From NCBI GenBank assembly GCA_014729775.1, contig WJJJ01000005.1, positions 1 through 58,010 on the forward strand: a DNA stretch of 58,010 nucleotides, written 5' to 3'. The DNA is from Candidatus Omnitrophota bacterium. Its GTDB lineage: Bacteria; Omnitrophota; Gorgyraeia; Duberdicusellales; 4484-171. The position numbers and the translations under genes were made by a program. The first letter of the stretch is position 1. Every line of letters starts with the position of its first letter. Under the pieces are notes generated by a model. The model did no database searches and had not been told where the DNA came from. It saw only the letters and a program-made list of their open reading frames with translations. Shown in pieces: positions 242-12,938 of this stretch.

Positions 242-2521
242 TTATGTACGCTCCCCTTTAACCGCTTGGCAGAGCACTTCGGCCAGCCGGCCGGTAAGTA
301 CTCTTCGTTCATATTGCCGAATATACCCTTCGCGCGCGCCATCGAGCACGGTACCCTGCCGAAACGCGGCAAACGCATCCAATATACTCTTTTTCACCGT
401 GGTCTTCTCGCCGTAACCAGCCACCTTTCCCAGTCCGGAAGCACGTACCACTTCCTGTTCTTCTCCTTCGCTCATCTGGCCCAAAATCGGTTTTCGGCAT
501 AACATCGCATCGAATATTTTCGACGGCGTCATCAACCCCGGCATCTCCCGACTCTTCCGAAAAAATACAAGCGCGGCATGCGCGCGGGCCAATATCGTCA
601 GGCATTCTCCGCGCGGCACCCGTTTCCGGTGCCGGGCGATACCCCGGACTTCCAGCGCAGTGAACACTTCCGATTGCGGCTTAGCCCCTAAAAATACAAG
701 CTGCACCGACCGTTGGAACTCGGGATCCTCGCGGCATAATTCGTTGACCACTTCCAAAAACTCGCGGGAATCTTCCTCATGATACAGATGCCCGGCATGT
801 ACCAGCGTAAACTTGGGGAACAGCCCTTCGTGCGAAGGTACGTTGTCAAGATCATACCCGTTCGGGATCACCGTGATCTTTCCCGGCGCGATCGCCGGAT
901 ATGACCGGACAATATCCTGCTTGAGGGCTCTGCTCACGACCACCATCCTCGCGGCATACTCCAGGATCATTTTTTCGAGCCGGCGCGTAAGAGCCTGGAA
1001 AAAAGAAAAATGCTTTCTGGCCCAGTACGAGGAATTCCAGGGATTGCGGTAATCAACGATCAGGGGCAGTCTTCGTATACGGGCAATCACATATCCGGCT
1101 ACCAGCGACGACGGGAACGGAGTGGTGGCGAACACCGCGGCGACCCGGTGCCGGCGGCATATCCTGAGGCCGGTCAGGACCGCCGGAACGATCCAACCCT
1201 GGACGACGTCCGGCACGGAACGCAGATCGCGGTAGAAGTGTTTCATTCTGCTGTACCAGGTCACTCTTTTCGTAATGCCGCCGTTTTTGCCGGTTGCCCC
1301 CGCCCGCGGCTTCACGCGTCGCCGTTTCCAGGAAAAAATATCGCTGGTACGGTACACCCGCGTCGACGGCGGGATATCGCCACAGAGTTCGAGATTGGTC
1401 CCCGAACCGAAATCATAGAACCGTTCGCAGGTCAGCACCACTGGTTTCCATCCGTACGCGGACAGGTATTTGACGAACTTCGCCGGCCGGATCGCGCCGG
1501 TATTCGCGCAGGGAGGGAAGAAATAAGATACACATAATACGGTTTTTACCTTTGATTTTGTAGAAAAAATTGTTGTGCACCACCTACGCGGAGGCAAAAA
1601 AAGATATAAAAGCGACCGCCAATGAGGCCTATATCTAAAACTCTGTAAAAATGATTTTTTGGCGACCAGATACTGATTTTGTCGGTAATGCTCGTACGCG
1701 AGGAAAAAATATTCGCTTCCAATAATCTTCTTTACTTTGCGCAGATCTATCCGGCGACCGACAAGCAACGGCTTAAATGTTTTGATTCGATTACGATGAT
1801 ACCTGATCTTTTCCTGCGTAATTCCTGCTGCGTGGATGTGATATATTGCGGTAACTCGAGGAAGATACCCAACTCGATGATTTTCCAGAACCCTCATCCA
1901 GTAATCCCGATCTTCTCCCACATACACATCCGTACGGAAAAGACCTGTTTTTTCCACTACTGCTCGCCGCATCATTACCGTACCAGTCCAGATCGGATAA
2001 GGAACAAAATCCAAGTATTTTTTATAGAATTGATCGTTAAATACAACCCCAGTATTTCTTTGTTCATGTGTTTCCTTTCCCAGGACAGAGAGCAATCTTT
2101 TTTTCTCGAGTACCGAATCGGTATCTTGCGAAGTATCCGATTGCACCGCGTAGTCGGAAAAAACCAGATCGACATCGGGATTCTCATCAAGGAACCTTAC
2201 TCTGTCTATAAGACTATCGGGCATCAACAGGTCGTCCGCATCTAGAAAGGCGATATATGCGCCCTGTGACGCCAGAATACCTGCATTACGTGCGGCGCCG
2301 GGGCCGGCGTTGTCTTGTTGTATATATTTTATTTTTTTTTCGTACATTTCTTGAACCGACCTGATTTTCTTAGCTGTGTCATCGGATGACCCATCATTGA
2401 TCAAGATTATCTCCATTGAAAGAGCCTCAGCGACACACACACTCCCCATAGTATGCGTTATGGTCTCCGCACAATTATAGGCCGGAATCACAATGCTTAA
2501 TTTCGTATCATATGATCGCAT
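242..2521 (-). CDS. Fused GT2-GT4 glycosyltransferase
   Basis: A 759-residue protein with two complete glycosyltransferase units. Residues 1-250 are a GT2 (GT-A fold) domain: LSIVIPAYN at 8-16, NDGSSDDT at 42-49, the DADD metal/nucleotide motif at 94-97 and EDRDYW near 203. Residues from about 326 to the end are a GT4-type (GT-B fold) transferase: VSYFFPP at 331-337, VDYRNPW at 489-495, VIPNGYD at 551-557. It probably adds two sugars in building the repeat unit on the cytoplasmic membrane face. The start ATG has a GGAG site and overlaps the upstream gene by 25 bases. Base composition drops sharply at about 1545, exactly where the two domains meet, which suggests a recent fusion. Confidence 0.85.
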   Translation of the reverse strand: MRSYDTKLSIVIPAYNCAETITHTMGSVCVAEALSMEIILINDGSSDDTAKKIRSVQEMYEKKIKYIQQDNAGPGAARNAGILASQGAYIAFLDADDLLMPDSLIDRVRFLDENPDVDLVFSDYAVQSDTSQDTDSVLEKKRLLSVLGKETHEQRNTGVVFNDQFYKKYLDFVPYPIWTGTVMMRRAVVEKTGLFRTDVYVGEDRDYWMRVLENHRVGYLPRVTAIYHIHAAGITQEKIRYHRNRIKTFKPLLVGRRIDLRKVKKIIGSEYFFLAYEHYRQNQYLVAKKSFLQSFRYRPHWRSLLYLFLPPRRWCTTIFSTKSKVKTVLCVSYFFPPCANTGAIRPAKFVKYLSAYGWKPVVLTCERFYDFGSGTNLELCGDIPPSTRVYRTSDIFSWKRRRVKPRAGATGKNGGITKRVTWYSRMKHFYRDLRSVPDVVQGWIVPAVLTGLRICRRHRVAAVFATTPFPSSLVAGYVIARIRRLPLIVDYRNPWNSSYWARKHFSFFQALTRRLEKMILEYAARMVVVSRALKQDIVRSYPAIAPGKITVIPNGYDLDNVPSHEGLFPKFTLVHAGHLYHEEDSREFLEVVNELCREDPEFQRSVQLVFLGAKPQSEVFTALEVRGIARHRKRVPRGECLTILARAHAALVFFRKSREMPGLMTPSKIFDAMLCRKPILGQMSEGEEQEVVRASGLGKVAGYGEKTTVKKSILDAFAAFRQGTVLDGAREGYIRQYERRVLTGRLAEVLCQAVKGERT

Positions 2522-3567
2522 ATGCGCTCCGAGAATTGCTTCTGCAATCTCTGGTAATAGAGAACCTTTTCAAAAATTGTCGTCCGATACTTTCCGTAAC
2601 CAGCAAAAAGCTGCTGCACCAACGAATCAACGAGTTCAACATTCACCTCGTCGGTACGCAAGTTAAATTCCGACATGCCCATCGACGCCATATAATCAGC
2701 ACATTTCGGCCGATACCCAAAAGATAGCGCCGGAACATGTGCACAATGAGCCAGAATAACAGAATGGAGTTTCTCGCCGATGAAAATATCGCAATGGTTT
2801 AATGACTGCATCACTTCATCAATTGATTTGTATTCAGGACAAATAGAAAATCCGCCGCCGATCTGTCGCAATAAATCCCTTGCTACTTCCAGATCCTGTT
2901 CACACATAGGATAAAACACAAGCTCATACCTGCTATCTTTCAGAAATTGCAACATGTTACGCAGAAAGTGAAAGAGCCTTGTCTCAGCCCCCCACATCTT
3001 TCCTTTTACTCTCCCGAAATTTATCCCAATGCGACGCCCCGGGTACCGCGGGACAAAATCCCTAATCCCTAGTGTAAGCGCAGGGTCACCGATTACTTCG
3101 GCATCAGAAAACCCATTTTCTTCCAGTATTTTTTGTGAATCGGGGCCCCTCACCCCGACAAACCGACATTTTCGCAAGCAATCATTCCATAAAGGAATGT
3201 CGATCTTCTTTCGATTAAACTCCCAGAACTGAGGGTTACGAACTCCTGCACCGAAAACATATAAATCCGGATATAATTTTTGAGCTCTTTGCAAAATCTT
3301 TCCGTAATTAGTACTGTAGAGCAAAGTGCCGCCGCCAAAAAGGATAGCATCATAGAGTTTTGTATTGAACAACCTCTCAATACACGCAATTTTAGACGTA
3401 TGTCGAAACGGAATCATATTGTGCGTGGGGAAAAGCTTTTGTATTGCATGAAAGATTGCTTCATCTCCTAAATTGCCGAATCCAATCCAACCGATATATC
3501 CTAACTGCCAGCGGAAAGGATGGAAAAAAGCTAAATTAGCCGAAAATCTGGAAAGCATCTTTAGCAT
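2497..3567 (-). CDS. Polysaccharide pyruvyltransferase family protein
   Basis: A 356-residue protein of the CsaB/WcaK pyruvyltransferase family, which transfers pyruvate from PEP as a ketal onto sugars of cell-surface polymers. Supporting motifs are the N-terminal GFGNLGDEAIF, the FGGGTLLY loop, GVRGPDSQKIL, and the C-terminal IGEKLHSVILAHCAHVPAL segment, where the histidine typical of the family is kept. I chose ATG 3567 because an AGGAG site lies four bases upstream; a longer GTG start at 3594 lacks one. It overlaps the upstream PP-loop gene by 7 bases. The gene is AT-rich compared with genes beyond 7 kb, as part of the block described in the findings. Confidence 0.85.
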   Translation of the reverse strand: MLKMLSRFSANLAFFHPFRWQLGYIGWIGFGNLGDEAIFHAIQKLFPTHNMIPFRHTSKIACIERLFNTKLYDAILFGGGTLLYSTNYGKILQRAQKLYPDLYVFGAGVRNPQFWEFNRKKIDIPLWNDCLRKCRFVGVRGPDSQKILEENGFSDAEVIGDPALTLGIRDFVPRYPGRRIGINFGRVKGKMWGAETRLFHFLRNMLQFLKDSRYELVFYPMCEQDLEVARDLLRQIGGGFSICPEYKSIDEVMQSLNHCDIFIGEKLHSVILAHCAHVPALSFGYRPKCADYMASMGMSEFNLRTDEVNVELVDSLVQQLFAGYGKYRTTIFEKVLYYQRLQKQFSERICDHMIRN

Positions 3568-4895
3568 AACTCTCCTGTCACGGTTTGCTGCCACTTAGCC
3601 ATATCCCGAAGAAAATTCCGATACCGTTTGCCTCTGTGCAGCCGTTGCAACTTATGAAGAATTTGCAAACTGTCTTTCGCAAATCCCACACGCTTCTCAT
3701 AATTTCTCAACCGCCCCCCGCACGAATATATGTTCGAAAATGATCCGGGAGCATTCTCAAAATCTTCTATGTAGTCCTGATACGTTTTGCCTAGTTTAAT
3801 TTCCAAAAAAGCGACGAATTCACTTTCTTCACGGCTAAGCTGGTTTCGTTTGTGTAAAAACTCCAATATTTCTGACCAGAACAAAGCACTAGTAATACGC
3901 AACTGGTAATTTTCCAAATACTGCATCGCCGAAAGAAAAGAGAAAGCACTGGACGGCAAGCTCTCTGTACCGGAAACACCGCGCAATTTCAATGCGACCG
4001 CGGTGCGGTAACATTTCTCACACCGTCCACAGTTTACTTGGTGATCAACATCGGAAGCACGTGTACAAACTCTTACCCTCTTCAACAACTGGGGATTTTT
4101 TGAAAGATAGACAATTTTCTCAAAACGTTTCACATCAAAACCATGATGTACTGTTTCGATACCATCACTGCAGATTAACGGATCCAAACGAGGATGCGAC
4201 CCCCAAGGATACCGGTTTCCGAATATCCCACTATAGCTTGACGCGACATATATCCGGTGGACCAGCTGTCTGCACGCAAGAAGAGGTGCAATCATTGCGC
4301 AGACATGAGCCATATATTCCCAGGAAACACGAGACAGGAACCTTACATTCGTTGAAAAAACCCGTAATCTTTTTCCAAATTCCTTCGCGAAATCCTGTGC
4401 CTGTCGTTCAATTTTGCTGAATGTTTCATTGTCGGAAGCAGACACGTCAGCTCCGTGAAAAAGGACCAAGTACGTAATTTCCTCGCTATTTCTCGCAAAA
4501 GTATAGAGTGAATCCACTCCTCCCGAAAAAAGCTGAGCGGCCACGCGCTTGGCATTATAATATGGCTTTGATTCCATGGGAGCCGTTATTCTTATCCGTC
4601 TTTGTCCATCGTACCACTCATTCCATAACGAACAGATGGCATCAACACGAGACTGCAATGATGGACTGACTGTAAGTGTCGGAGCCAATCGAATATCAGT
4701 ATGCTCAAAATATGCCAGGGGAAGGAGCGAAAACGCAACCGCATCGCCCATATTTGAAAGGCTATCCGCAGGGAAAGGAAAGGACAGAACAAGCTTATTG
4801 TCGGCAAGCCATACCCACCTGGAAGTTTTAAGGAAAAAAACCAAAATCGTCCTTTCCTTAAATTCATATTGCTTCACTTTTTCTACGTAAATCAT
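3561..4895 (-). CDS. QueC-like PP-loop protein with a zinc-type cysteine cluster
   Basis: A 444-residue protein of the adenine-nucleotide alpha-hydrolase (PP-loop) superfamily. The ATP-binding SGGVDS motif is at 124-129. A cysteine set C277, C289, C292 and C295 (the last three in NCGRCEKC) matches the zinc site at the C-terminal part of QueC, the 7-cyano-7-deazaguanine synthase. Unlike QueC (about 220-230 residues) it has an extra 120-residue N-terminal part and a 140-residue C-terminal tail. It sits between the flippase and the pyruvyltransferase, with an AGGA site 7 bases before ATG. A role in ATP-dependent modification of a sugar or carrier is inference; the substrate is unknown. Confidence 0.7.
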   Translation of the reverse strand: MIYVEKVKQYEFKERTILVFFLKTSRWVWLADNKLVLSFPFPADSLSNMGDAVAFSLLPLAYFEHTDIRLAPTLTVSPSLQSRVDAICSLWNEWYDGQRRIRITAPMESKPYYNAKRVAAQLFSGGVDSLYTFARNSEEITYLVLFHGADVSASDNETFSKIERQAQDFAKEFGKRLRVFSTNVRFLSRVSWEYMAHVCAMIAPLLACRQLVHRIYVASSYSGIFGNRYPWGSHPRLDPLICSDGIETVHHGFDVKRFEKIVYLSKNPQLLKRVRVCTRASDVDHQVNCGRCEKCYRTAVALKLRGVSGTESLPSSAFSFLSAMQYLENYQLRITSALFWSEILEFLHKRNQLSREESEFVAFLEIKLGKTYQDYIEDFENAPGSFSNIYSCGGRLRNYEKRVGFAKDSLQILHKLQRLHRGKRYRNFLRDMAKWQQTVTGELC

Positions 4896-4897
4896 AG

Positions 4898-6472
4898 CTA
4901 TGTCCTAGAAAATAAAAATTGAGCAGGTTTTTTCAGTACGGGGATCGATTGGAAAAGACCCTCTAAATATTTCCGCTCATCATCCGTAAAACCTATTTTG
5001 TAAATGAAAAAGAAATAACCACAACTACTACCTAGTCCAAAAATAAATAAACGAAAATACGAAGGCTGCAAGAAAGGCGTAGCAACAACCCAAATTAATA
5101 TACCCATCATAAAAGCTTTCAGAAAAGAAAGAGTCAATACCTTGAGATAACTACTGACTTTCATATTAAGCACTTTACATGTATAAACCGGCTGCACAAC
5201 CAATCGCATCACCGCCATCGGTATAGCAGTTCCCAAAGCAACACCATTCAACCCTATGAAATGCACCAACACCAAACTCAATGCGAGATTCAAAATCGCT
5301 TCTACTGAGTTCGTGAGTGCATAGAACCGATGCTTTGATATCCCATACAGAAGCTGAGTAGAAGGTAATTGTCCTGACATAATCGCAAAAGGGACAACAA
5401 AAATAAGGCATAACTGATAAGCGAAACTGTATTTTTCTCCGACCCAGCGAATAATAAAGAACTCCCCCCCAACAAAAATCATCACGCCGAGAAAAACGGA
5501 TATAAAAACCGAAATTTTAATAAAAAACAATAATTTCTTCTTAATGTTTTCATAATCCTGTTTCCCTTCGTACTGACTAAATAATGGGGTGGTAATACCC
5601 GTAATGCAAAACACAAAGCTCTTATAATATTTCATTAACCGTGCAGCGATGGAATATACAGTTACTGATGCCAACCCTAACACACCGGCGATCACGAAAT
5701 TATCAATATTGAACCTGATCTTGTCTGCGACTTGGTTAACAAACGTATAAAAACTGTAGCGGAACATCTGCGTCAGTTTCTTCTTATCCACTAAAAACAA
5801 AGAATATTTTATATACGGCGCCTCACGTACAGATAAAATCAATAATGCAAAATATCCGCTAACCTCTGTTACAAAGGTTAGCACCGCTAGTGCAAGAATT
5901 TTATATCCTAATTTCAGAAAAAACACGATCAAAACGGATCGTACTAGAATTTTGATAATTTCCACAAAAGAAATTAAGTCATACCGAAGATTTGAGGAAA
6001 GAACACCGAAAAATGTCCGGGAAGGAAAGCTTAACGCGATACCTATCCCCAAAATTACAACCACCTGCCGGAACAAGATGTAACTTTTTACATTTGGAAA
6101 AAAAACTTTGGCACCGAAAAATATCGCGAGAGTCACTACTATTGCGAGTAGACCAATAGCGGAAAAGACAACGAACGAAGTGCTCGCATAAGAAGAAGCC
6201 AATTTGTGATCTTTTTTCCCTATCGCCTGCGAAACAAATCGCTGATTCGCCGATGCAAGGCCGAAATTGAACAAATCATAGAAACCAAACAACGTTCCAA
6301 CTAAAATCCATAAACCGTACATTTTATCCCCTAAAGAACCAATCACCAAGGGAGTTAATAATAAAGTCACTGCCAGATTTACAAAAAAGGCACCTCCTCG
6401 CAAGAATGAACTTCTTGCCATGATAAGTGACCTTCCAGTTTTTACAGAATTATTCATTTGACGGTGATTCAT
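4898..6472 (-). CDS. Wzx-type polysaccharide flippase
   Basis: A 524-residue very hydrophobic protein with about 12-14 membrane segments, of the MOP/Polysacc_synt family. It would flip the lipid-linked repeat unit across the inner membrane. The N-terminus has the usual short amphipathic stretch (KTGRSLI) followed by the first membrane segment and LGDKMYGLW, typical of Wzx proteins. ATG 6472 overlaps the upstream truncated glycosyltransferase by 23 bases and lacks a good ribosome site; ATG 6421 has GGAAGG upstream and is an alternative. The gene is strikingly AT-rich (a sample line is about 33% GC against about 57% in the flanking glycosidase gene). Confidence 0.88.
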   Translation of the reverse strand: MNHRQMNNSVKTGRSLIMARSSFLRGGAFFVNLAVTLLLTPLVIGSLGDKMYGLWILVGTLFGFYDLFNFGLASANQRFVSQAIGKKDHKLASSYASTSFVVFSAIGLLAIVVTLAIFFGAKVFFPNVKSYILFRQVVVILGIGIALSFPSRTFFGVLSSNLRYDLISFVEIIKILVRSVLIVFFLKLGYKILALAVLTFVTEVSGYFALLILSVREAPYIKYSLFLVDKKKLTQMFRYSFYTFVNQVADKIRFNIDNFVIAGVLGLASVTVYSIAARLMKYYKSFVFCITGITTPLFSQYEGKQDYENIKKKLLFFIKISVFISVFLGVMIFVGGEFFIIRWVGEKYSFAYQLCLIFVVPFAIMSGQLPSTQLLYGISKHRFYALTNSVEAILNLALSLVLVHFIGLNGVALGTAIPMAVMRLVVQPVYTCKVLNMKVSSYLKVLTLSFLKAFMMGILIWVVATPFLQPSYFRLFIFGLGSSCGYFFFIYKIGFTDDERKYLEGLFQSIPVLKKPAQFLFSRT

Positions 6473-6968
6473 GAATTTTCGGCCCCTGTCCTCTCATCGA
6501 TCCGTACACACTCCTAACCAGTCGTACTACCCCCCATTCATCTTCCCCTTTTTTAAAAACATTCATTATTGTCCGCGTCCTTCCTTTCGCTCTCTCGGAA
6601 TAGACGATTATCTTACTGGATACTGTAAGCAGGAACCGGTGAAACAGAAGCTCGATGCACCGTTCTCTGGACTCATGATTGAATAAATTATGCACCGTCC
6701 ATACGATCTTGCCCCCCCACACGCGCAGGATCACCAATTTCACCAAGAAAACGATAAACTGAACGCAACGTCGTAGCTTCCCGGCCTTGTAGAGGAAGGC
6801 GTATATCCAATGCACGTGCACGATATCAAACTTTTTCTTTCCCAGCACCATCTGCCGGGAAAGGTATTTTTTCACGGTGACGGCAACATACCGCAATCCC
6901 CCTTCAATGAGAAGTCGTTGATACGAATTACCCTGCAGCTGATCGTTCACCCAGACAACCCTGAGCAT
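6450..6968 (-). pseudogene. N-terminal fragment of a glycosyltransferase
   Basis: 172 residues corresponding to only the N-terminal Rossmann half of a GT-B glycosyltransferase: FDIVHVHWIYAF followed by KIVWTVHNLFNHE, a pattern of GT4-type enzymes acting on polysaccharide intermediates. The C-terminal nucleotide-sugar domain is missing: the reading frame ends just inside the start of the flippase gene. ATG 6968 is preferred because AAAGGA lies 6 bases upstream and the conserved fold begins there; an upstream ATG at 7067 adds 33 low-similarity residues. It lies at the right edge of the AT-rich block, so loss of its 3' half during insertion of that block is a reasonable inference. It could still be expressed as a small protein. 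Confidence 0.6.
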
Positions 6969-7079
6969 GCCATATCCTTTATCTAGAGTATCCCGGCGAC
7001 GTTCCGGGCCCGGACGGGCTTTCGGATTCCTCTGTTTTACAGTGATGACCTCGTTCACATATGCCATTTTCTTTTCCTG

Positions 7080-7601
7080 TTACCGCGAGCGACTGACATC
7101 CCTTCTTTTCCGTATGTATCCCGGCGCATGAAGTGCCGCGGTTCGGAATTCCTCGAACAGAACGCATTCCCGGTCCCGATGTACAGAAAGGAATGCCTCA
7201 AGTCCTTTGATCACCTTTGCCGGACTGCCGGCAGCGACCGTATTCGGCGGCACGTCTTTGGCCACCACGCTTCCGGCGCCGACGACCGCGCCGGGGCCGA
7301 TCGTCACTCCCGGCAATATGATGGTTCGCGCGCCGATAAAGCAATTCTCCTTGATCGTCACCGGAGCAAACCGGGCAACGCGTAAAAATTTGTACATGCT
7401 GGCGTCATGGCCGAGAATCAGCACCTCGTTGGACAGCGTACAGTTATCCCCGATCGTAATCAGCCGGCAGTACAGGTCGTCAAAATAACAGCCGGGCATA
7501 ATGTCGACGTTGCGGCCAACCTTCATTCCATTTTGAATGCAGCGGTCGATGTACCGGCGATATTTATATCTCCGCATTTTGGTGAGTATTCTTGACACCA
7601 T
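7080..7601 (-). CDS. Hexapeptide-repeat O-acyltransferase
   Basis: A 173-residue left-handed beta-helix transferase of the WbbJ/LacA type. Hexapeptide turns run from about IGDNCTLSNEV through VTIKENCFIGARTIILPGVTIG and GAVVGAGSVVAKDV, ending in the typical NTVAAGSPAKVIK. Family members O-acetylate sugars using acetyl-CoA in the cytoplasm. ATG 7601 is chosen over a TTG at 7670 because AGGAG lies 8 bases upstream. It sits between a nucleotide-sugar epimerase and the glycosyltransferase fragment, so decoration of a repeat-unit sugar is likely. Composition returns to the GC-rich pattern of the locus. Confidence 0.85.
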   Translation of the reverse strand: MVSRILTKMRRYKYRRYIDRCIQNGMKVGRNVDIMPGCYFDDLYCRLITIGDNCTLSNEVLILGHDASMYKFLRVARFAPVTIKENCFIGARTIILPGVTIGPGAVVGAGSVVAKDVPPNTVAAGSPAKVIKGLEAFLSVHRDRECVLFEEFRTAALHAPGYIRKRRDVSRSR

Positions 7602-7695
7602 GTGATGAGCTCCTGTCTTCGTATCGCGTCGCGCGCATTGCGCATCCAGAATCAGAAACCGTACTTTCAAACCCTCGACGCAATGCGGACGACAA

Positions 7696-8685
7696 TTACC
7701 CCGCCTCTGACCTCTTGTCTTTCATCGACTCGATCGTCCGTTCCAAAATCTCATCCAGCGACACTTTGGGCGCATAGCCGGTGAGGGCGTGAATCTTGGT
7801 CACGTCCGGCACCCGGTAGCGCATGTCCTCAAACCCCTCACCGTAGGCCTGGCTGTAGGGCACATACACCAGTTCCGAAGACGACTTCGTCATTTCCTTG
7901 ATCTTTTTGGCTAAGTCTTCGATGGTGATCCCCTGAGGGTTGCCGATATTGCACACGTCACCGACCGCTTCCCGGGTCGCCATCAGATCGATAATGCCTT
8001 TGACCACGTCCCCAACATAGGTAAAACTGCGGGTCTGCTTGCCGTCGCCGTAGACCGTAATCGGCAGATTATGCAGTGCCTGGCTGATAAACCGCGGGAT
8101 CACCATTCCGTAACGGCCGGTCTGCCTCGGCCCGACGGTATTGAAAAAGCGGACGATCACCGCCGCAAGGCCGGTCTTCCTGCAGTAGGCCAGCGCGAGG
8201 AATTCATCGAGCGCCTTGGCGCAGGCGTAACTCCACCGGGACGTCTTGGTGGAACCGAGAATGCTGTCGGCGTTCTCGGGGAACACCGAGCTGGGGTTTT
8301 TCCCGTAGACTTCCGATGTGGACGCCACCAGCACCTTCTTGTTTCCCTTACTGGCTAAATCAAGCACGATCTCGGTCCCCTGCACGTTGGTATGAATGCT
8401 CTGCAACGGTTTCTCCAGGATGTATTTGACGCCCACGGCCGCGGCCAGATGATAGATCTCATCGCAGCTGTCTACCAGCTTGCGCATGACCATTTCATCC
8501 ATAATCGTATCGCGGGTGAAATGGAAATCGGGATTTTCCATTAAATGCGCAATATTGTCCCGGGTGCCGGTGGAGAGATCATCAATCACCGAAACCCTGC
8601 ACCCCTGCGCCAGCAGCGCTTCGGCCAGGTGCGAGCCGATGAAGCCCGCTCCGCCGGTGATCAGTATTTTTTTCTTGGCATTCAT
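7696..8685 (-). CDS. NAD-dependent nucleotide-sugar epimerase/dehydratase
   Basis: A 329-residue extended short-chain dehydrogenase. It has the N-terminal nucleotide-binding ITGGAGFIGSHLAEALL, STSEVYGK around the catalytic serine, and YACAK as the YxxxK catalytic pair, followed by RFFNTVGPRQTGRYGMV typical of UDP-glucuronate decarboxylase and UDP-glucose 4-epimerase relatives. It would supply a nucleotide sugar for the polysaccharide. ATG 8685 follows AAAGGAGGAGGA. Exact substrate cannot be fixed from sequence; the GPRQ motif and length fit UDP-sugar epimerases or decarboxylases. It is 17 bases downstream of the glycosidase gene. Confidence 0.85.
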   Translation of the reverse strand: MNAKKKILITGGAGFIGSHLAEALLAQGCRVSVIDDLSTGTRDNIAHLMENPDFHFTRDTIMDEMVMRKLVDSCDEIYHLAAAVGVKYILEKPLQSIHTNVQGTEIVLDLASKGNKKVLVASTSEVYGKNPSSVFPENADSILGSTKTSRWSYACAKALDEFLALAYCRKTGLAAVIVRFFNTVGPRQTGRYGMVIPRFISQALHNLPITVYGDGKQTRSFTYVGDVVKGIIDLMATREAVGDVCNIGNPQGITIEDLAKKIKEMTKSSSELVYVPYSQAYGEGFEDMRYRVPDVTKIHALTGYAPKVSLDEILERTIESMKDKRSEAG

Positions 8686-8702: not shown

Positions 8703-10844
8703 TTACAATTCAATCTCCAGCGCGGTGACCGACCGGGCCGGCAGAGTATATTCGAACGCGCCCTCGGCGGTAAATTCCGTAACGGCCTCGATCGCGATGC
8801 TGTCCGGACTGTTCTCGTTGGACTCCATCAGCCCCGGCCCGGTAAGCACCCAGGGAGTGCAGGTCATCGTTCCGTTCGTTCCTTTTACCCGCATCTTCAC
8901 TTCGATATCGTCCTTTTCATGTTTATTGACCAGGATCACCCCAAGTTTGTTTCCGGTTTTGAATTTGCTCGCGTAACAGGTCACGTAGGGCACCTCGCCG
9001 GTATAGGAACTGGGCCACCAGTCATTTTCTTTATAGTAGACGGGAGAATTATGCACGTGACTCTCCACCATCACGTCGCCGAAGTGATCGGCGTACAGTT
9101 GTATCGCGTACCCTTTGGGACGGATGATCTTCTGGTCCCAGGGACTGCCGCCCCAGCCCCAGGGTTTATCCCAGCCGCGGATCAGACCGAACATACACTC
9201 CTGAAAGTTATAATGGGCCGACACCGTCACCCCATGCCGGGCGAATTCGCCCAAGGTATCGGCATAAAAAAGTGCATTGGCCAGCGACCACATCGCGTTG
9301 CCTTCGGCAAAGGGCGGACTCGGGTCGCTGGAAGGCGCGTCCCAGGCCCCATCCCACTCAAGGAAGGTTACCTCGATCTCGCCCTCGCGGTAGGGCGCGT
9401 AGGTATCGATGAGCGAATGGACCCGTTCGATCATCCGCGGGATCTGCCTATGATTGGCCATGACTTCCTTGGGGTAAGGGTGCACCCGCCCTTTGTAGGC
9501 GTGCTCCTTATTGATATGATTGGGATACCAGTGAATCGAAACGAAATCGATATACCGTCCGGCCTCCTTTAATATGGTCTGGTCCCACTGGACTTTGTTA
9601 TAATAGGTTTCGCCCCAGTTGGCGCCGATCTTGATCGTCGGGTCCACCGCCTTCATCGCGGTGGAATATTCCCGGACGATCTTCGCATAATTGCCCGCGG
9701 TGGTATGGGCGTTGTCCCAGCCGCCGTAAGCCTCGTTCCCCAATTCCCAGTATTCGACCCGGAAATCCTTCTCCTTATTCAGATACCGGACCAATTCCGC
9801 GGCTTCTTCCGCGGTGCCGGATTCGATGTTGACCTGCATGATCAGCTCAGTTCCGGTATCCCGAAGGAAATCGACCAGATAATCGACATCGGCCAGCATC
9901 ATCCGTTTCATCTTCGGGCTGAAATCCCCCTCGCCGGTCTTCCAGCGCCAGCCCGGCGATCCGCCGCCGGGGAACCGGAAACAGGTCAATCCCAGGTGCC
10001 GGACGAGCTTGCGGATGATGGTATTGCTCTCCATTTTCGCGCACAGGTTTGATCCCCAGAGCAATTCGCTCACCTCATTTCCTTCGCTTGCCGGATCGAT
10101 CACGATCGAGACCGGTCCGGACACCGAGACGGGTACCTTCCGCTTCTTTACAGGCACTGCCGTCGCCTCAGCCCCGGAAGCACTTTCTTCACGCGGCTGC
10201 TCCGCCGCCGGAACGGAAGCTTCCTCGGCGTCCCCGCTGACCAGCCGGATATTGTCGAAATAGAGCACGTGCCGGCCCGGGACTTTCCACAGAAAGATCC
10301 GCATGTGATTGATGTCATTCATGATCAACTTGCGGTCAATCGCCTCGATCGGAATCTCAATATTATTCCAGCCCTTGCGTAACGCAATCCCGTCACGGTT
10401 AAACCGGTCATAGTAAGAAGTATTGCGGGTGTCGGCAATAAACAGCGACAGCGGCACCTCGCCTTCTTCGCTGTAGACGTCAAACTTCAGCGCCTTGTAG
10501 CCGACCCAGTTACGGGGTAACGTCGCCCAGTACCCAACGGCACCGCCCCCATCGGGAAAGGTCACTTTAAGAGAATAAGTTCCCCGGCTGGCGTAGGCGT
10601 CCGAACGCTCAACGGCCGCTTTACTCACTTCGAGTTTCTTTACGTCGCTCTCCTGTTCAAAATCCGAAATCCTCTGCACGCCTTTGACGAACAGGTTGAC
10701 TTCCGTCGCCTCACGTGCCTTGGAGAAGAACCCTTTCACCCGCGGGTTGACGTTGATGTCAACGTCAACCAATTTTTCGGCAAAGAATCCGAGAAAAAAC
10801 ACCCCTAACACCAATATCAGCAACCGGTTGAACGTCAGCTTCAT
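8703..10844 (-). CDS. Membrane-anchored clan GH-A glycoside hydrolase with carbohydrate-binding domain
   Basis: A 713-residue protein. An N-terminal hydrophobic segment (about residues 5-23) is an uncleaved anchor or signal. A beta-sandwich-like domain follows (about 50-220, ending in HVLYFDNIRLVSG), typical of carbohydrate-binding modules. After a Glu/Ala/Pro-rich linker comes a TIM-barrel catalytic domain related to GH39/GH51/GH79 arabinofuranosidases and glucuronidases: WELGNE gives the acid/base glutamate and TFLEWDGAW the likely nucleophile. It probably trims or edits the polymer in the periplasm. ATG 10844 has a perfect AAGGAGGTG site and overlaps the upstream gene stop as ATGA. Confidence 0.8.
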   Translation of the reverse strand: MKLTFNRLLILVLGVFFLGFFAEKLVDVDINVNPRVKGFFSKAREATEVNLFVKGVQRISDFEQESDVKKLEVSKAAVERSDAYASRGTYSLKVTFPDGGGAVGYWATLPRNWVGYKALKFDVYSEEGEVPLSLFIADTRNTSYYDRFNRDGIALRKGWNNIEIPIEAIDRKLIMNDINHMRIFLWKVPGRHVLYFDNIRLVSGDAEEASVPAAEQPREESASGAEATAVPVKKRKVPVSVSGPVSIVIDPASEGNEVSELLWGSNLCAKMESNTIIRKLVRHLGLTCFRFPGGGSPGWRWKTGEGDFSPKMKRMMLADVDYLVDFLRDTGTELIMQVNIESGTAEEAAELVRYLNKEKDFRVEYWELGNEAYGGWDNAHTTAGNYAKIVREYSTAMKAVDPTIKIGANWGETYYNKVQWDQTILKEAGRYIDFVSIHWYPNHINKEHAYKGRVHPYPKEVMANHRQIPRMIERVHSLIDTYAPYREGEIEVTFLEWDGAWDAPSSDPSPPFAEGNAMWSLANALFYADTLGEFARHGVTVSAHYNFQECMFGLIRGWDKPWGWGGSPWDQKIIRPKGYAIQLYADHFGDVMVESHVHNSPVYYKENDWWPSSYTGEVPYVTCYASKFKTGNKLGVILVNKHEKDDIEVKMRVKGTNGTMTCTPWVLTGPGLMESNENSPDSIAIEAVTEFTAEGAFEYTLPARSVTALEIEL

Positions 10845-11548
10845 GCGTTCACCTCCTTCCTTTCTGTTTCGGGATGGAACACCCTCAACACACGGTCTCC
10901 GTTGCCGCGGATCATCCATAGTATTTTCCGCTGTCCGCCTGCCGCGTGCCGGCAGTCGTAGCGGCGCAGGAAAAACGCGCGGGTATACACGCATTTCAAA
11001 TACAGGCGGCTCCCGGCACGTTCCTGCACTTTCAACGACGGCGCGTTTCTGTGATCCACGATCGAATACACCCGGCGGACACCATCTTTGTGCAGGACGC
11101 CGAAAATGTTTTTCTTGGCCGCGGTGGAATATCCCTGCCGCCGGAATTCCGGCACGGTATAGTTGTGTGCCAAATAGGCTTCGTCCCCCTGGAGATGCCA
11201 TTGTCCGTCGATACAGAGACGGTCGGTACAACCCTGTTCGATCCAGATATAATTGATCCGCTGCTCACCGGACCCGGTCACAAATAACCGGCGTCCCCGC
11301 CGCACGCGGGCCAGCGCTCCCTCCTGCCAGTACCAGCCGTCGTGATAGGCAACCTCACCGGCAATCTCCTCGCGGGAAACTTCCCGGGTGAGACACCGCG
11401 CATTCTCTTCGGAAGGAACCGCGTCCAGATCGGCCCGGAACAGAAGCAGGGTATGATGCCTGACCACCAATCCCGTTTTTTCCAGGAAACGAAGAAACGT
11501 TTTCCTTGTGCCGTGCCTGCGGAAATAACGCACAACCTTGCCGAACAT
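10841..11548 (-). CDS. GNAT-type acetyltransferase
   Basis: A 235-residue protein whose C-terminal half carries a GNAT acetyl-CoA fold: YTVPEFRRQGYSTAAKKNIF matches motif A (R/QxxGxG/A), followed by RVYSIVDHRNAPSLKVQERAG, the usual motif B with Asn and Ser/L. The N-terminal half is a beta-rich region with no motif I recognise. ATG 11548 is chosen because GGAGGCAAGGA lies upstream; a longer frame back to 11650 lies inside the preceding gene. It is tightly packed between the CapK-like gene (1-base gap) and the glycosidase (4-base overlap). The acceptor, perhaps an aminosugar of the polymer, is unknown. Confidence 0.72.
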   Translation of the reverse strand: MFGKVVRYFRRHGTRKTFLRFLEKTGLVVRHHTLLLFRADLDAVPSEENARCLTREVSREEIAGEVAYHDGWYWQEGALARVRRGRRLFVTGSGEQRINYIWIEQGCTDRLCIDGQWHLQGDEAYLAHNYTVPEFRRQGYSTAAKKNIFGVLHKDGVRRVYSIVDHRNAPSLKVQERAGSRLYLKCVYTRAFFLRRYDCRHAAGGQRKILWMIRGNGDRVLRVFHPETERKEVNA

Positions 11549-11549
11549 G

Positions 11550-12938
11550 CTATCCTTGCCTCCCGGTATGCGCGCCCGACAAAGACGATACCACCAGCAG
11601 GGTTTTCCCTGAAGCGGTCCGGTCAAGTTCCCGTACCGGTTTAAAATCAAACTCGAAATCCTCTCCGTACCTTTGGAGAAGATGGGCGCGCATCACATTT
11701 TCCTCCCGCGGAGTGATTGTTTTCCTGGGAATGACGCACATAGTCACTTTGCCGGGCACCCGCTGATGGTATTGGTACTGCGCGATATATTCATAATACG
11801 CTTCAAGATAGTCCATGATCCGGTGATACCGCCCTTTTTTATCCATGATGTACATCCTCTTGCGGCCTCCCGACAGGTACATCAGAGGAAACCCGCGGCG
11901 GCAGGGACAGGGTCCCTCCACCGGGAACCCGTAATCTTCGGTTTTATACCGGATAAACGGCATCACGAAATTGCTCAGGCCGGTCGTGATGATCTCCCGC
12001 GCGCCGTCGGAGAACCCGGGATCGGGTTTCCCGAACTCCACGATCCCGTAATCGGAATTCACGTGATATCCCCGGTGACAGCCGCATTGACAGGCGATCA
12101 CGTTACGTTCTTCCATCGAATACCAGTCATGGATCTTGGCGTTGAAATACTCCTCGATGTTCCCCCGCTGGTCCGCGGACAGGACCTCAGCGAAAGTAAA
12201 GATCGCCCGCGGGGAGAACGGACGGGACAAGCCGGCCTCGCGCAGTCCTTTCACCAATTCCGCCAGGGCAGCCGGATACCCTTTGAGAAACCGAAACGGG
12301 AAGTTCCTGAGTGCGGAGTAATAATGAAAGATATTCTTTCCCGTGATGTCATAAATGGAAAAAAACACTTTCTTCTGGACGGGATTATACTGATAGATAT
12401 CTTTCCTCCTGTCGAACTGGGCACGGAACACCGCGCACAGGTCATCCGGATTATATCCCGCCCAGCGGTAAAACCGCCATTCATAGGGATTGCCGATGAC
12501 GTGCTCATTGTGGTAATCGGCATACACCGGAACGACTTTTCCCGTCGTACCGCTGGTCGTGATTGCAAACAAATTACGCCTGTCCAATCCCCGGGTCACA
12601 AAGGCGTCCGGATCGGCCCGTACCGTATCCTTGGACAGAAGCGGGATCTTATGAAGATCCTCCACCGACCGGATATCCCGGGGCGCAAGCTTGCAGTCAC
12701 GAAACAACCGGCGGTAATAAGGGACATGGGCGTAGGCGTGCCGGACGAGTGCCCGCAGGCGCTCGTTCTGATAATCACGCAGCTCCTGCGGAGTCCACCA
12801 CTGCCGCTGTTCCAGATCGTTGAGCTGACGGAAGAACTCCTTGCCTACTCGCAACCGCAGAGGCAGAGCGCCGTAACCGCATTTCAGACCGGTTTTCACG
12901 AATTGCGGCAGTTTCTTATACAGCGTGCGCGGATGCAT
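11550..12938 (-). CDS. CapK/PaaK-like adenylate-forming enzyme
   Basis: A 462-residue protein of the phenylacetate-CoA ligase (PaaK/CapK) family of AMP-forming enzymes. It has the N-terminal HAYAHVPYYRRLF segment, the Ser/Thr/Gly loop TTSGTTGKVVPVY, and YSMEERNVIACQCGCHRGYHV with YKTEDYG in the C-terminal part. CapK-like members sit in capsule and EPS loci and are thought to activate a carboxylate before transfer. The adjacent GNAT-type genes on both sides suggest that an activated acyl or amino acid is moved onto a sugar. ATG 12938 has GGGAGGAG 6 bases upstream and overlaps the preceding gene by 23 bases. Confidence 0.82.
   Translation of the reverse strand: MHPRTLYKKLPQFVKTGLKCGYGALPLRLRVGKEFFRQLNDLEQRQWWTPQELRDYQNERLRALVRHAYAHVPYYRRLFRDCKLAPRDIRSVEDLHKIPLLSKDTVRADPDAFVTRGLDRRNLFAITTSGTTGKVVPVYADYHNEHVIGNPYEWRFYRWAGYNPDDLCAVFRAQFDRRKDIYQYNPVQKKVFFSIYDITGKNIFHYYSALRNFPFRFLKGYPAALAELVKGLREAGLSRPFSPRAIFTFAEVLSADQRGNIEEYFNAKIHDWYSMEERNVIACQCGCHRGYHVNSDYGIVEFGKPDPGFSDGAREIITTGLSNFVMPFIRYKTEDYGFPVEGPCPCRRGFPLMYLSGGRKRMYIMDKKGRYHRIMDYLEAYYEYIAQYQYHQRVPGKVTMCVIPRKTITPREENVMRAHLLQRYGEDFEFDFKPVRELDRTASGKTLLVVSSLSGAHTGRQG

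Follow-up and report, generated by a model that had tools for sequence, protein, structure and literature searches.

A gene in an exopolysaccharide locus of a Candidatus Omnitrophota bacterium encodes a PP-loop protein, P0001, whose membership of the QueC-type, four-cysteine class of these enzymes is well supported and whose family has polysaccharide pyruvyltransferase (PPT), and not the flippase, as its recurrent partner. We propose with moderate confidence that P0001 is a PP-loop ligase that works together with the PPT, activating a carboxylate on what we infer to be a pyruvylated or to-be-pyruvylated substrate and forming a C–N bond.

The window, by which we mean the entire 58,010-nucleotide stretch of contig WJJJ01000005.1 that was analysed, belongs to an assembly of 1.65 Mb. 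P0001 (444 aa; 3561..4895, minus strand) is defined by its open reading frame and translation, an AlphaFold2 model and a fold match. An earlier note, made from the DNA letters, gave these boundaries exactly and left the strand unstated; the motifs it listed, FSGGVDS (S124–S129) and the cysteines C277, C289, C292 and C295, are all present in the translation, and its remark that the protein is twice as long as QueC-type enzymes agrees with the approximately 222 aa of canonical QueC (PMC13329287). The glycan-locus setting and the two neighbours it named, a flippase on one side and a PPT on the other, are likewise borne out by Pfam. The Wzx-type flippase lies upstream in the operon (4898..6472, minus; PF13440, PF01554 (MatE) and PF01943), the PPT follows with a start that overlaps the P0001 stop codon (PS_pyruv_trans; 2497..3567, minus; PF04230, E 1.8e-27), and a GT2–GT4 double glycosyltransferase lies further downstream (242..2521, minus; PF00535, PF13439). 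Only 2 nt separate the flippase stop codon (4900–4898) from the P0001 ATG (4895), and the probable PPT start ATG (3567–3565), preceded by AGGAG, overlaps the P0001 stop TAA (3563–3561) as ATGCTAA; given this gap and this overlap, the genes for the flippase, P0001 and the PPT have the look of a single, translationally tight operon. Further glycan genes annotated by Pfam (GT4-like, hexapeptide acyltransferase, NAD sugar epimerase/dehydratase) occupy 6450..8685 on the minus strand, and the same-strand genes of the window also include a Wzz/GNVR chain-length protein, a nucleotidyltransferase and a phosphomannomutase-type enzyme. The locus is a Wzx/Wzz-type exopolysaccharide locus. It also contains an 842-aa frame (8703–11231, minus; start position assigned mechanically) with a weak alpha-L-arabinofuranosidase/GH39/GH79-like region, its ArfA-like score of 94.6 bits being below cut-off, and a gene at 11550–12938 (minus) whose product resembles AMP-dependent CoA ligases of the DVU_1553/PaaK type, with scores below the cut-offs and no Pfam match.

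P0001 has no significant match in Pfam, NCBIfam or PADLOC. The QueC model PF06508 does not match it at E 1 or, in a separate search, at E 0.1, and matches 25 of 91 relatives weakly (best E 2.6e-4). TIGR03573, the model for NASAT, matches neither P0001 nor any protein of the window's genome, and PADLOC returns nothing for P0001 or the neighbouring PPT, its QatC model missing P0001. With DUF6395 (PF19932), P0001 scores only E 0.17 and 25 of the 91 relatives reach E ≤0.1; since no match exceeded its cut-off in a search of 147 genomes, P0001 was not assigned to it. Searching the PDB by sequence with P0001 alone gave only chance matches to ankyrin/DARPin proteins, and the profile of the family alignment (A2, 91 rows) gave only weak PP-loop matches, including QatC at E 0.16–0.19. 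Profile comparison with hhalign yielded single-pair probabilities of 92% for QueC, 63% for QatC, 43% for AsnB and 16% for NASAT, and 92–95% for the P0001 family against QueC. The genome's canonical QueC was located on another contig by a profile search (E 3.9e-74), and P0001 is not the genome's QueC. Two more PP-loop-type proteins of the same genome match the QueC model weakly (G000:C16:22838-23023, 22.5 bits; G000:C13:4653-4835, 20.6 bits).

The AlphaFold2 model of P0001, built on the 91-row alignment, has a pLDDT of 90.3 and a pTM of 0.89. In VIA-align its best row is QatC (9y01_B; Z 12.3, rmsd 4.9 over 294 residues, with model residues 1–363 aligned), followed by QueC (3bl5; Z 11.7, rmsd 3.2 over 176 residues) and Cap9 (9nto; Z 10.2, rmsd 3.2 over 166 residues), below which come LarE at 8.0 and then many PP-loop enzymes at or under 8. 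As the QatC and QueC scores differ by less than 1 we regard them as tied, with the greater chain coverage going to QatC. Z scores of 11–12 to QatC and QueC for the predicted structure support the QueC-type PP-loop and four-cysteine identity first read from the motifs. A Foldseek search of the PDB with the whole model found nothing at E 0.001 or better, and one against a viral library placed a phage QueC on top (E 6.5e-6). The model carries an N-terminal extension (residues 1–115; 4551..4895, minus) that is absent from QueC, predicted to comprise three long strands and two helices and covered by the QatC alignment, which starts at residue 1, and a C-terminal helical extension (residues 309–444; 3561..3971, minus). 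QatC is described as a QueC core plus N- and C-terminal extensions (PMC13279940); P0001 appears to have the same core-plus-two-extensions layout, although its N-domain folded alone returned only RNase H-like arrangements, with a best Z of 5.1 that is not significant and with QatC unlisted.

The conserved motifs comprise the ATP PP-loop SGGVDS (residues 124–129; 4509..4526, minus), recognised by sequence and family conservation; the family motif GSHP (residues 232–235; 4191..4202, minus), which profile alignment places close to YPDC, the substrate motif in QueC; and the predicted zinc site C277-x11-C289-x2-C292-x2-C295 (4011..4067, minus), recognised in the same way as the loop. G126, D128 and C277 never vary in A2, all 91 rows have S or T at position 124, and S129 is kept in 77 rows and replaced by A or G in 14. 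Other positions that are well kept among the 91 rows are G148 (90), D150 (86), N183 (76), R185 (71), P230 (78), G232 (83), H234 (78), P235 (80), D238 (88), H250 (80), D at position 251 (74), G252 (85), R257 (90), K260 (90), R275 (83) and R297 (85). Conservation across N288–C295 is in part a matter of construction, since most A2 rows were retrieved by the pattern NCGxC[ED]KCx[RFQ]; among 13 phylum loci from a pattern-free profile search, 12 carry the four-cysteine motif and 12 the (relaxed) PP-loop motif, and the two loci that each miss one motif are truncated ORFs. Homologs in both sets retain the ATP loop, the loss of which had been envisaged as a count against the initial idea. That the conserved positions are polar and well kept indicates an active site rather than a relic. 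Within the family, the QueC-type four are the only conserved cysteines.

Substrate choice appears to have departed from that of QueC. In QueC and Cap9 a tyrosine and an aspartate read 7-deazaguanine (PMC13279940); hhalign pairs H234-P235-R236-L237 of P0001 with QueC YPDC, and the R236 column is variable over the 91 rows. Because the reader positions of QueC and Cap9 are unconserved, in a register set by sequence profile and not by superposition, a QueC substrate is unlikely for P0001. Beyond this lost reader, P0001 differs from QueC, the 7-cyano-7-deazaguanine synthase of tRNA modification, in its double length, its glycan context in place of queD/queE, and an x11 cysteine spacing against the x8 of the QueC zinc motif C(x)8CxxCxxC, while sharing the core fold, the SGGxDS loop and a C-terminal C..CxxCxxC site with four cysteines in both. 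QatC, which belongs to the anti-phage system qatABCD, resembles P0001 in the SGGxDS loop, the four-cysteine site and the best structural score (Z 12.3), but the two are only 11% identical, C-x11-CGRCEKCYRT of P0001 contrasts with C(x)19CGxCxxRR of QatC (PMC13329287), and the qatA, qatB and qatD neighbours of QatC are absent beside P0001, where flippase, PPT and glycosyltransferases stand instead. Cap9 of type IV CBASS has the core fold in common but is a minimal protein of about 185 aa with a CD-NTase partner (PMC13329287). NASAT/WbpG is, like P0001, a PP-loop protein of glycan loci with a zinc tetracysteine site, predicted in the case of P0001 (PMC10607449); its layout CXXCXn[GN]XCXXC is absent from P0001, in which only C277/C289/C292/C295 are conserved. 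WbpG/NASAT, placed in the QueC superfamily by a 2026 survey (PMC13329287), is a zinc-binding PP-loop enzyme to which ATP-dependent amidation in O-antigen loci has been attributed (PMC10607449; PMC13329287), and the earlier note's expectation of chemistry new to such loci was therefore overstated.

The association with PPT reaches far beyond the window. In a pattern-free sample of Omnitrophota a PF04230 PPT occurs in 13 of the 14 carriers of a P0001-type gene against 68 of 370 non-carriers (81/384 overall; Fisher p 8e-9, not corrected for relatedness). Since most genomes with a PPT lack it, the PP-loop gene looks accessory to pyruvylation and not required for it. The PPT directly adjoins the PP-loop gene in 11/14 carriers; elsewhere it lies approximately 2 kb off (G136) or, still on one contig with the gene, at a distance of approximately 7 kb (G262), and it is absent from G240, a genome that is 72% complete. 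In the broad sample the immediate downstream same-strand ORF is a PPT in 22/63 cases and the immediate upstream one in 5/71, compared with at most 2/95 control ORFs 4–6.5 kb away, where PPT falls outside the 25 commonest families. The PPT ORFs found in loci (n = 39) lie within 250 bp in 25 cases, at 250–3000 bp in 13 and further away in 1. A scan of GTDB species genomes gave at least 566 relatives among 589 pattern-matched stretches, the best 80 of which were taken; the 78 non-redundant loci among these comprise 17 with an adjacent same-strand PPT, 2 with a fused one, 12 with one otherwise within 3 kb, 1 with one further off, 2 with a weak match and 44 without PPT, some flanks being short. In both fusions the PP-loop domain precedes the PPT, which occupies residues 401–608 of a 753-aa protein in Thiomargarita (L077; Pfam E 1.1e-12) and 453–643 of a 724-aa protein in Dehalococcoidia (L024; E 3.9e-7). 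Co-occurrence with both neighbours had been put forward as a check: the PPT half holds widely, whereas the flippase is an occasional companion (PF13440 in 5/71 upstream ORFs). By crude, window-seeded profiles that underestimate the numbers, glycosyltransferase/Wzx genes accompany 20/34 loci with PPT and 15/51 without. On a tree of 96 rows the PPT label, from which two weak rows (L029 and L091, E approximately 7e-4) were removed, sits on 40 rows with 27 changes, at least 15 of them forced by supported branches, and 48/500 shuffles gave a count as low; the label is thus hardly clustered, which implies frequent gain or loss of the PPT linkage.

The partner itself has the family features of a PPT. 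The window PPT scores 97.4 bits against PF04230 (cut-off 25.3) and 89 bits, under cut-off, against TIGR03609 (CsaB), for which R148, H308 and K328 are reported to bind PEP (PMC10435577). Its H277 and K297, numbered from the GTG at 3594 (2704..2766, minus), match H308 and K328 with a spacing of 20 in both proteins, and R149 of an RGP motif was matched by eye to R148, where profile alignment puts N. All of 40 partner PPTs have a match to H308, 33 have one to K328 and 30 to R148 (7 gaps). CsaB thus shares PF04230 and the PEP-binding residues with the partner PPT, and a PP-loop partner goes unmentioned in the excerpts of the CsaB study (PMC10435577).

The family is broad and patchily distributed. 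Relatives in the 96 tree rows span at least 22 named bacterial phyla, and in Omnitrophota the gene is sporadic, occurring in 14/384 genomes and in 0/20 other listed members of the window genome's own family. Relatives account for 12 of 183 pattern-matched stretches on viral contigs and occur in 27 plasmid records, including those of haloarchaea, Azospirillum, Priestia and Gloeothece, where they are annotated 'hypothetical protein'; phage records held no P0001 relative. Duplicate loci (L006, L020, L056 and L097) were excluded from counts, and the phylum and genome-contig samples overlap, to go by the lengths of the contigs, in four pairs (L028/L190, L039/L187, L057/L189 and L059/L191). Two or more family members occur in 16/97 loci, with 22–70% identity where aligned, as if for different acceptors. 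Tandem or clustered PP-loop paralogues, two to four per locus, are found at L015:7321-11257, L060:5904-12148 and L014:7647-10251. On a viral-metagenome contig (L104:9857-12403, plus) a distant member is fused to an aspartyl/asparaginyl beta-hydroxylase (PF05118, E 1.2e-10), and the fusion protein also has a weak hydrolase-like region.

Not every locus is a glycan locus. Three Azospirillum plasmid records (L160, L161 and L013) carry the PPT and PP-loop pair with no other glycan genes, with a gene for a multicopper oxidase on one side and genes for molybdate transport on the other, and efflux genes also near. Two actinobacterial loci without PPT, one with wax-ester synthase/DGAT, hydrolase and asparagine-synthetase genes (L060) and one with hydrolase, ABC permease and luciferase-like genes (L047), indicate that the family is broader than glycans. 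Asparagine-synthetase-like genes (PF00733, often with GATase; e.g. L060, L022 and L058) are the commonest upstream neighbours, and their products are PP-loop enzymes too; at 7/71 upstream positions for Asn_synthase/GATase, no ammonia-supplying partner gene recurs often.

PP-loop enzymes convert ATP to AMP and PPi as they adenylate a carboxylate or carbonyl, and QueC, Cap9 and NASAT form C–N bonds (PMC13329287; PMC13279940; PMC10607449); zinc is held by four cysteines in QueC, QatC and NASAT (same sources). In the ligase reading that we prefer, the PPT, to judge by PF04230 and its kept PEP residues, would move a pyruvyl group from PEP to a sugar. P0001 would bind ATP at SGGVDS and adenylate a carboxylate, or an equivalent carbonyl, on the PPT's substrate with release of PPi, whereupon ammonia or an amine could attack to give an amide-type C–N bond, as is thought for QueC, Cap9 and NASAT; its four cysteines would hold a structural zinc. 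The carboxylate would most likely be that of the pyruvyl ketal or else an acidic group on the sugar that serves as acceptor. In a tentative and somewhat unlikely elaboration, the pair would first add a pyruvyl ketal to the sugar and then use ammonia or an amine to turn the carboxylate of the ketal into an amide, so that the negative charge brought in by pyruvylation is lost.

P0001 might instead act on the PPT's acceptor before pyruvylation, or make an activated precursor, and the product might be a nitrile, an ester or another acyl-adenylate derivative. The order of PP-loop first and PPT second, which recurs in genes and fusions, would fit, as would the continuation of QueC to a nitrile (PMC13329287), but nothing points to a particular product and gene order is no sure guide to reaction order; we consider this unlikely. 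That P0001 is a second NASAT/WbpG-like enzyme, forming an acetamidino group on an N-acetyl sugar independently of the pyruvyl group, in loci where the PPT merely marks acidic polysaccharides, seems quite unlikely: NASAT is indeed a zinc-binding PP-loop enzyme of glycans (PMC10607449) and many glycan genes are close by, yet P0001 has no TIGR03573 match, a profile probability of 16% and another cysteine layout, while fusions exist and PPT adjacency in 11/14 carriers is tighter than mere co-location. We hold it improbable that P0001, as has been proposed for QatC, attaches a carboxylate-bearing small molecule to the N-terminus of a partner protein, here the PPT or another operon protein. The closest fold, QatC, forms a complex with QatB (PMC13279940), and Cap9 modifies a protein N-terminus (PMC13329287); against these precedents, the predicted N-termini of partner PPTs, whose starts were called mechanically, share no Met-Gly start, the PPT has no free N-terminus in the two fusions, no qat-like genes neighbour the window gene, and the Tyr/Asp reader positions are unconserved. 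Sulfur transfer to a glycan precursor in the manner of LarE and TtuA, the thiolation that the earlier note also entertained, is highly improbable: both share the fold at Z 7–8 but are outscored structurally by QueC, QatC and Cap9, the family conserves no cysteines other than those of its C-x(n)-C-x2-C-x2-C site, which is of the QueC type, and no sulfur-carrier family is among the listed neighbour families.

The fold and the class of chemistry are already known; the P0001 family, together with its PPT partner and the fusions, seems not to have been described before. A review devoted to pyruvylated glycoconjugates contains none of the terms 'amidat', 'PP-loop' or 'ATP-dependent', and 'amide' in other senses only (PMC6801904); the words polysaccharide, pyruvyl, glycosyl and glycan never occur in the 2026 survey of the QueC superfamily (PMC13329287), and the open-licence literature held nothing relevant tying PP-loop or QueC enzymes to polysaccharide, pyruvyl transferase or exopolysaccharide. 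QueC-fold enzymes serve nucleobase synthesis and, as lately shown or proposed, protein modification in anti-phage defence; the P0001 family adds a wider use tied to pyruvylation. The pairing with PPT suggests an undescribed ATP-driven step in the making of pyruvylated molecules. If the proposed amidation of the ketal is true, decorations of the pyruvamide type would form a class of glycan modification that has so far gone unrecognised, and the same two-enzyme module would make a small molecule outside glycan loci, as in Azospirillum. The PP-loop/PPT pair and its natural fusions offer a role for hundreds of genes, at least 566 related stretches having been found.
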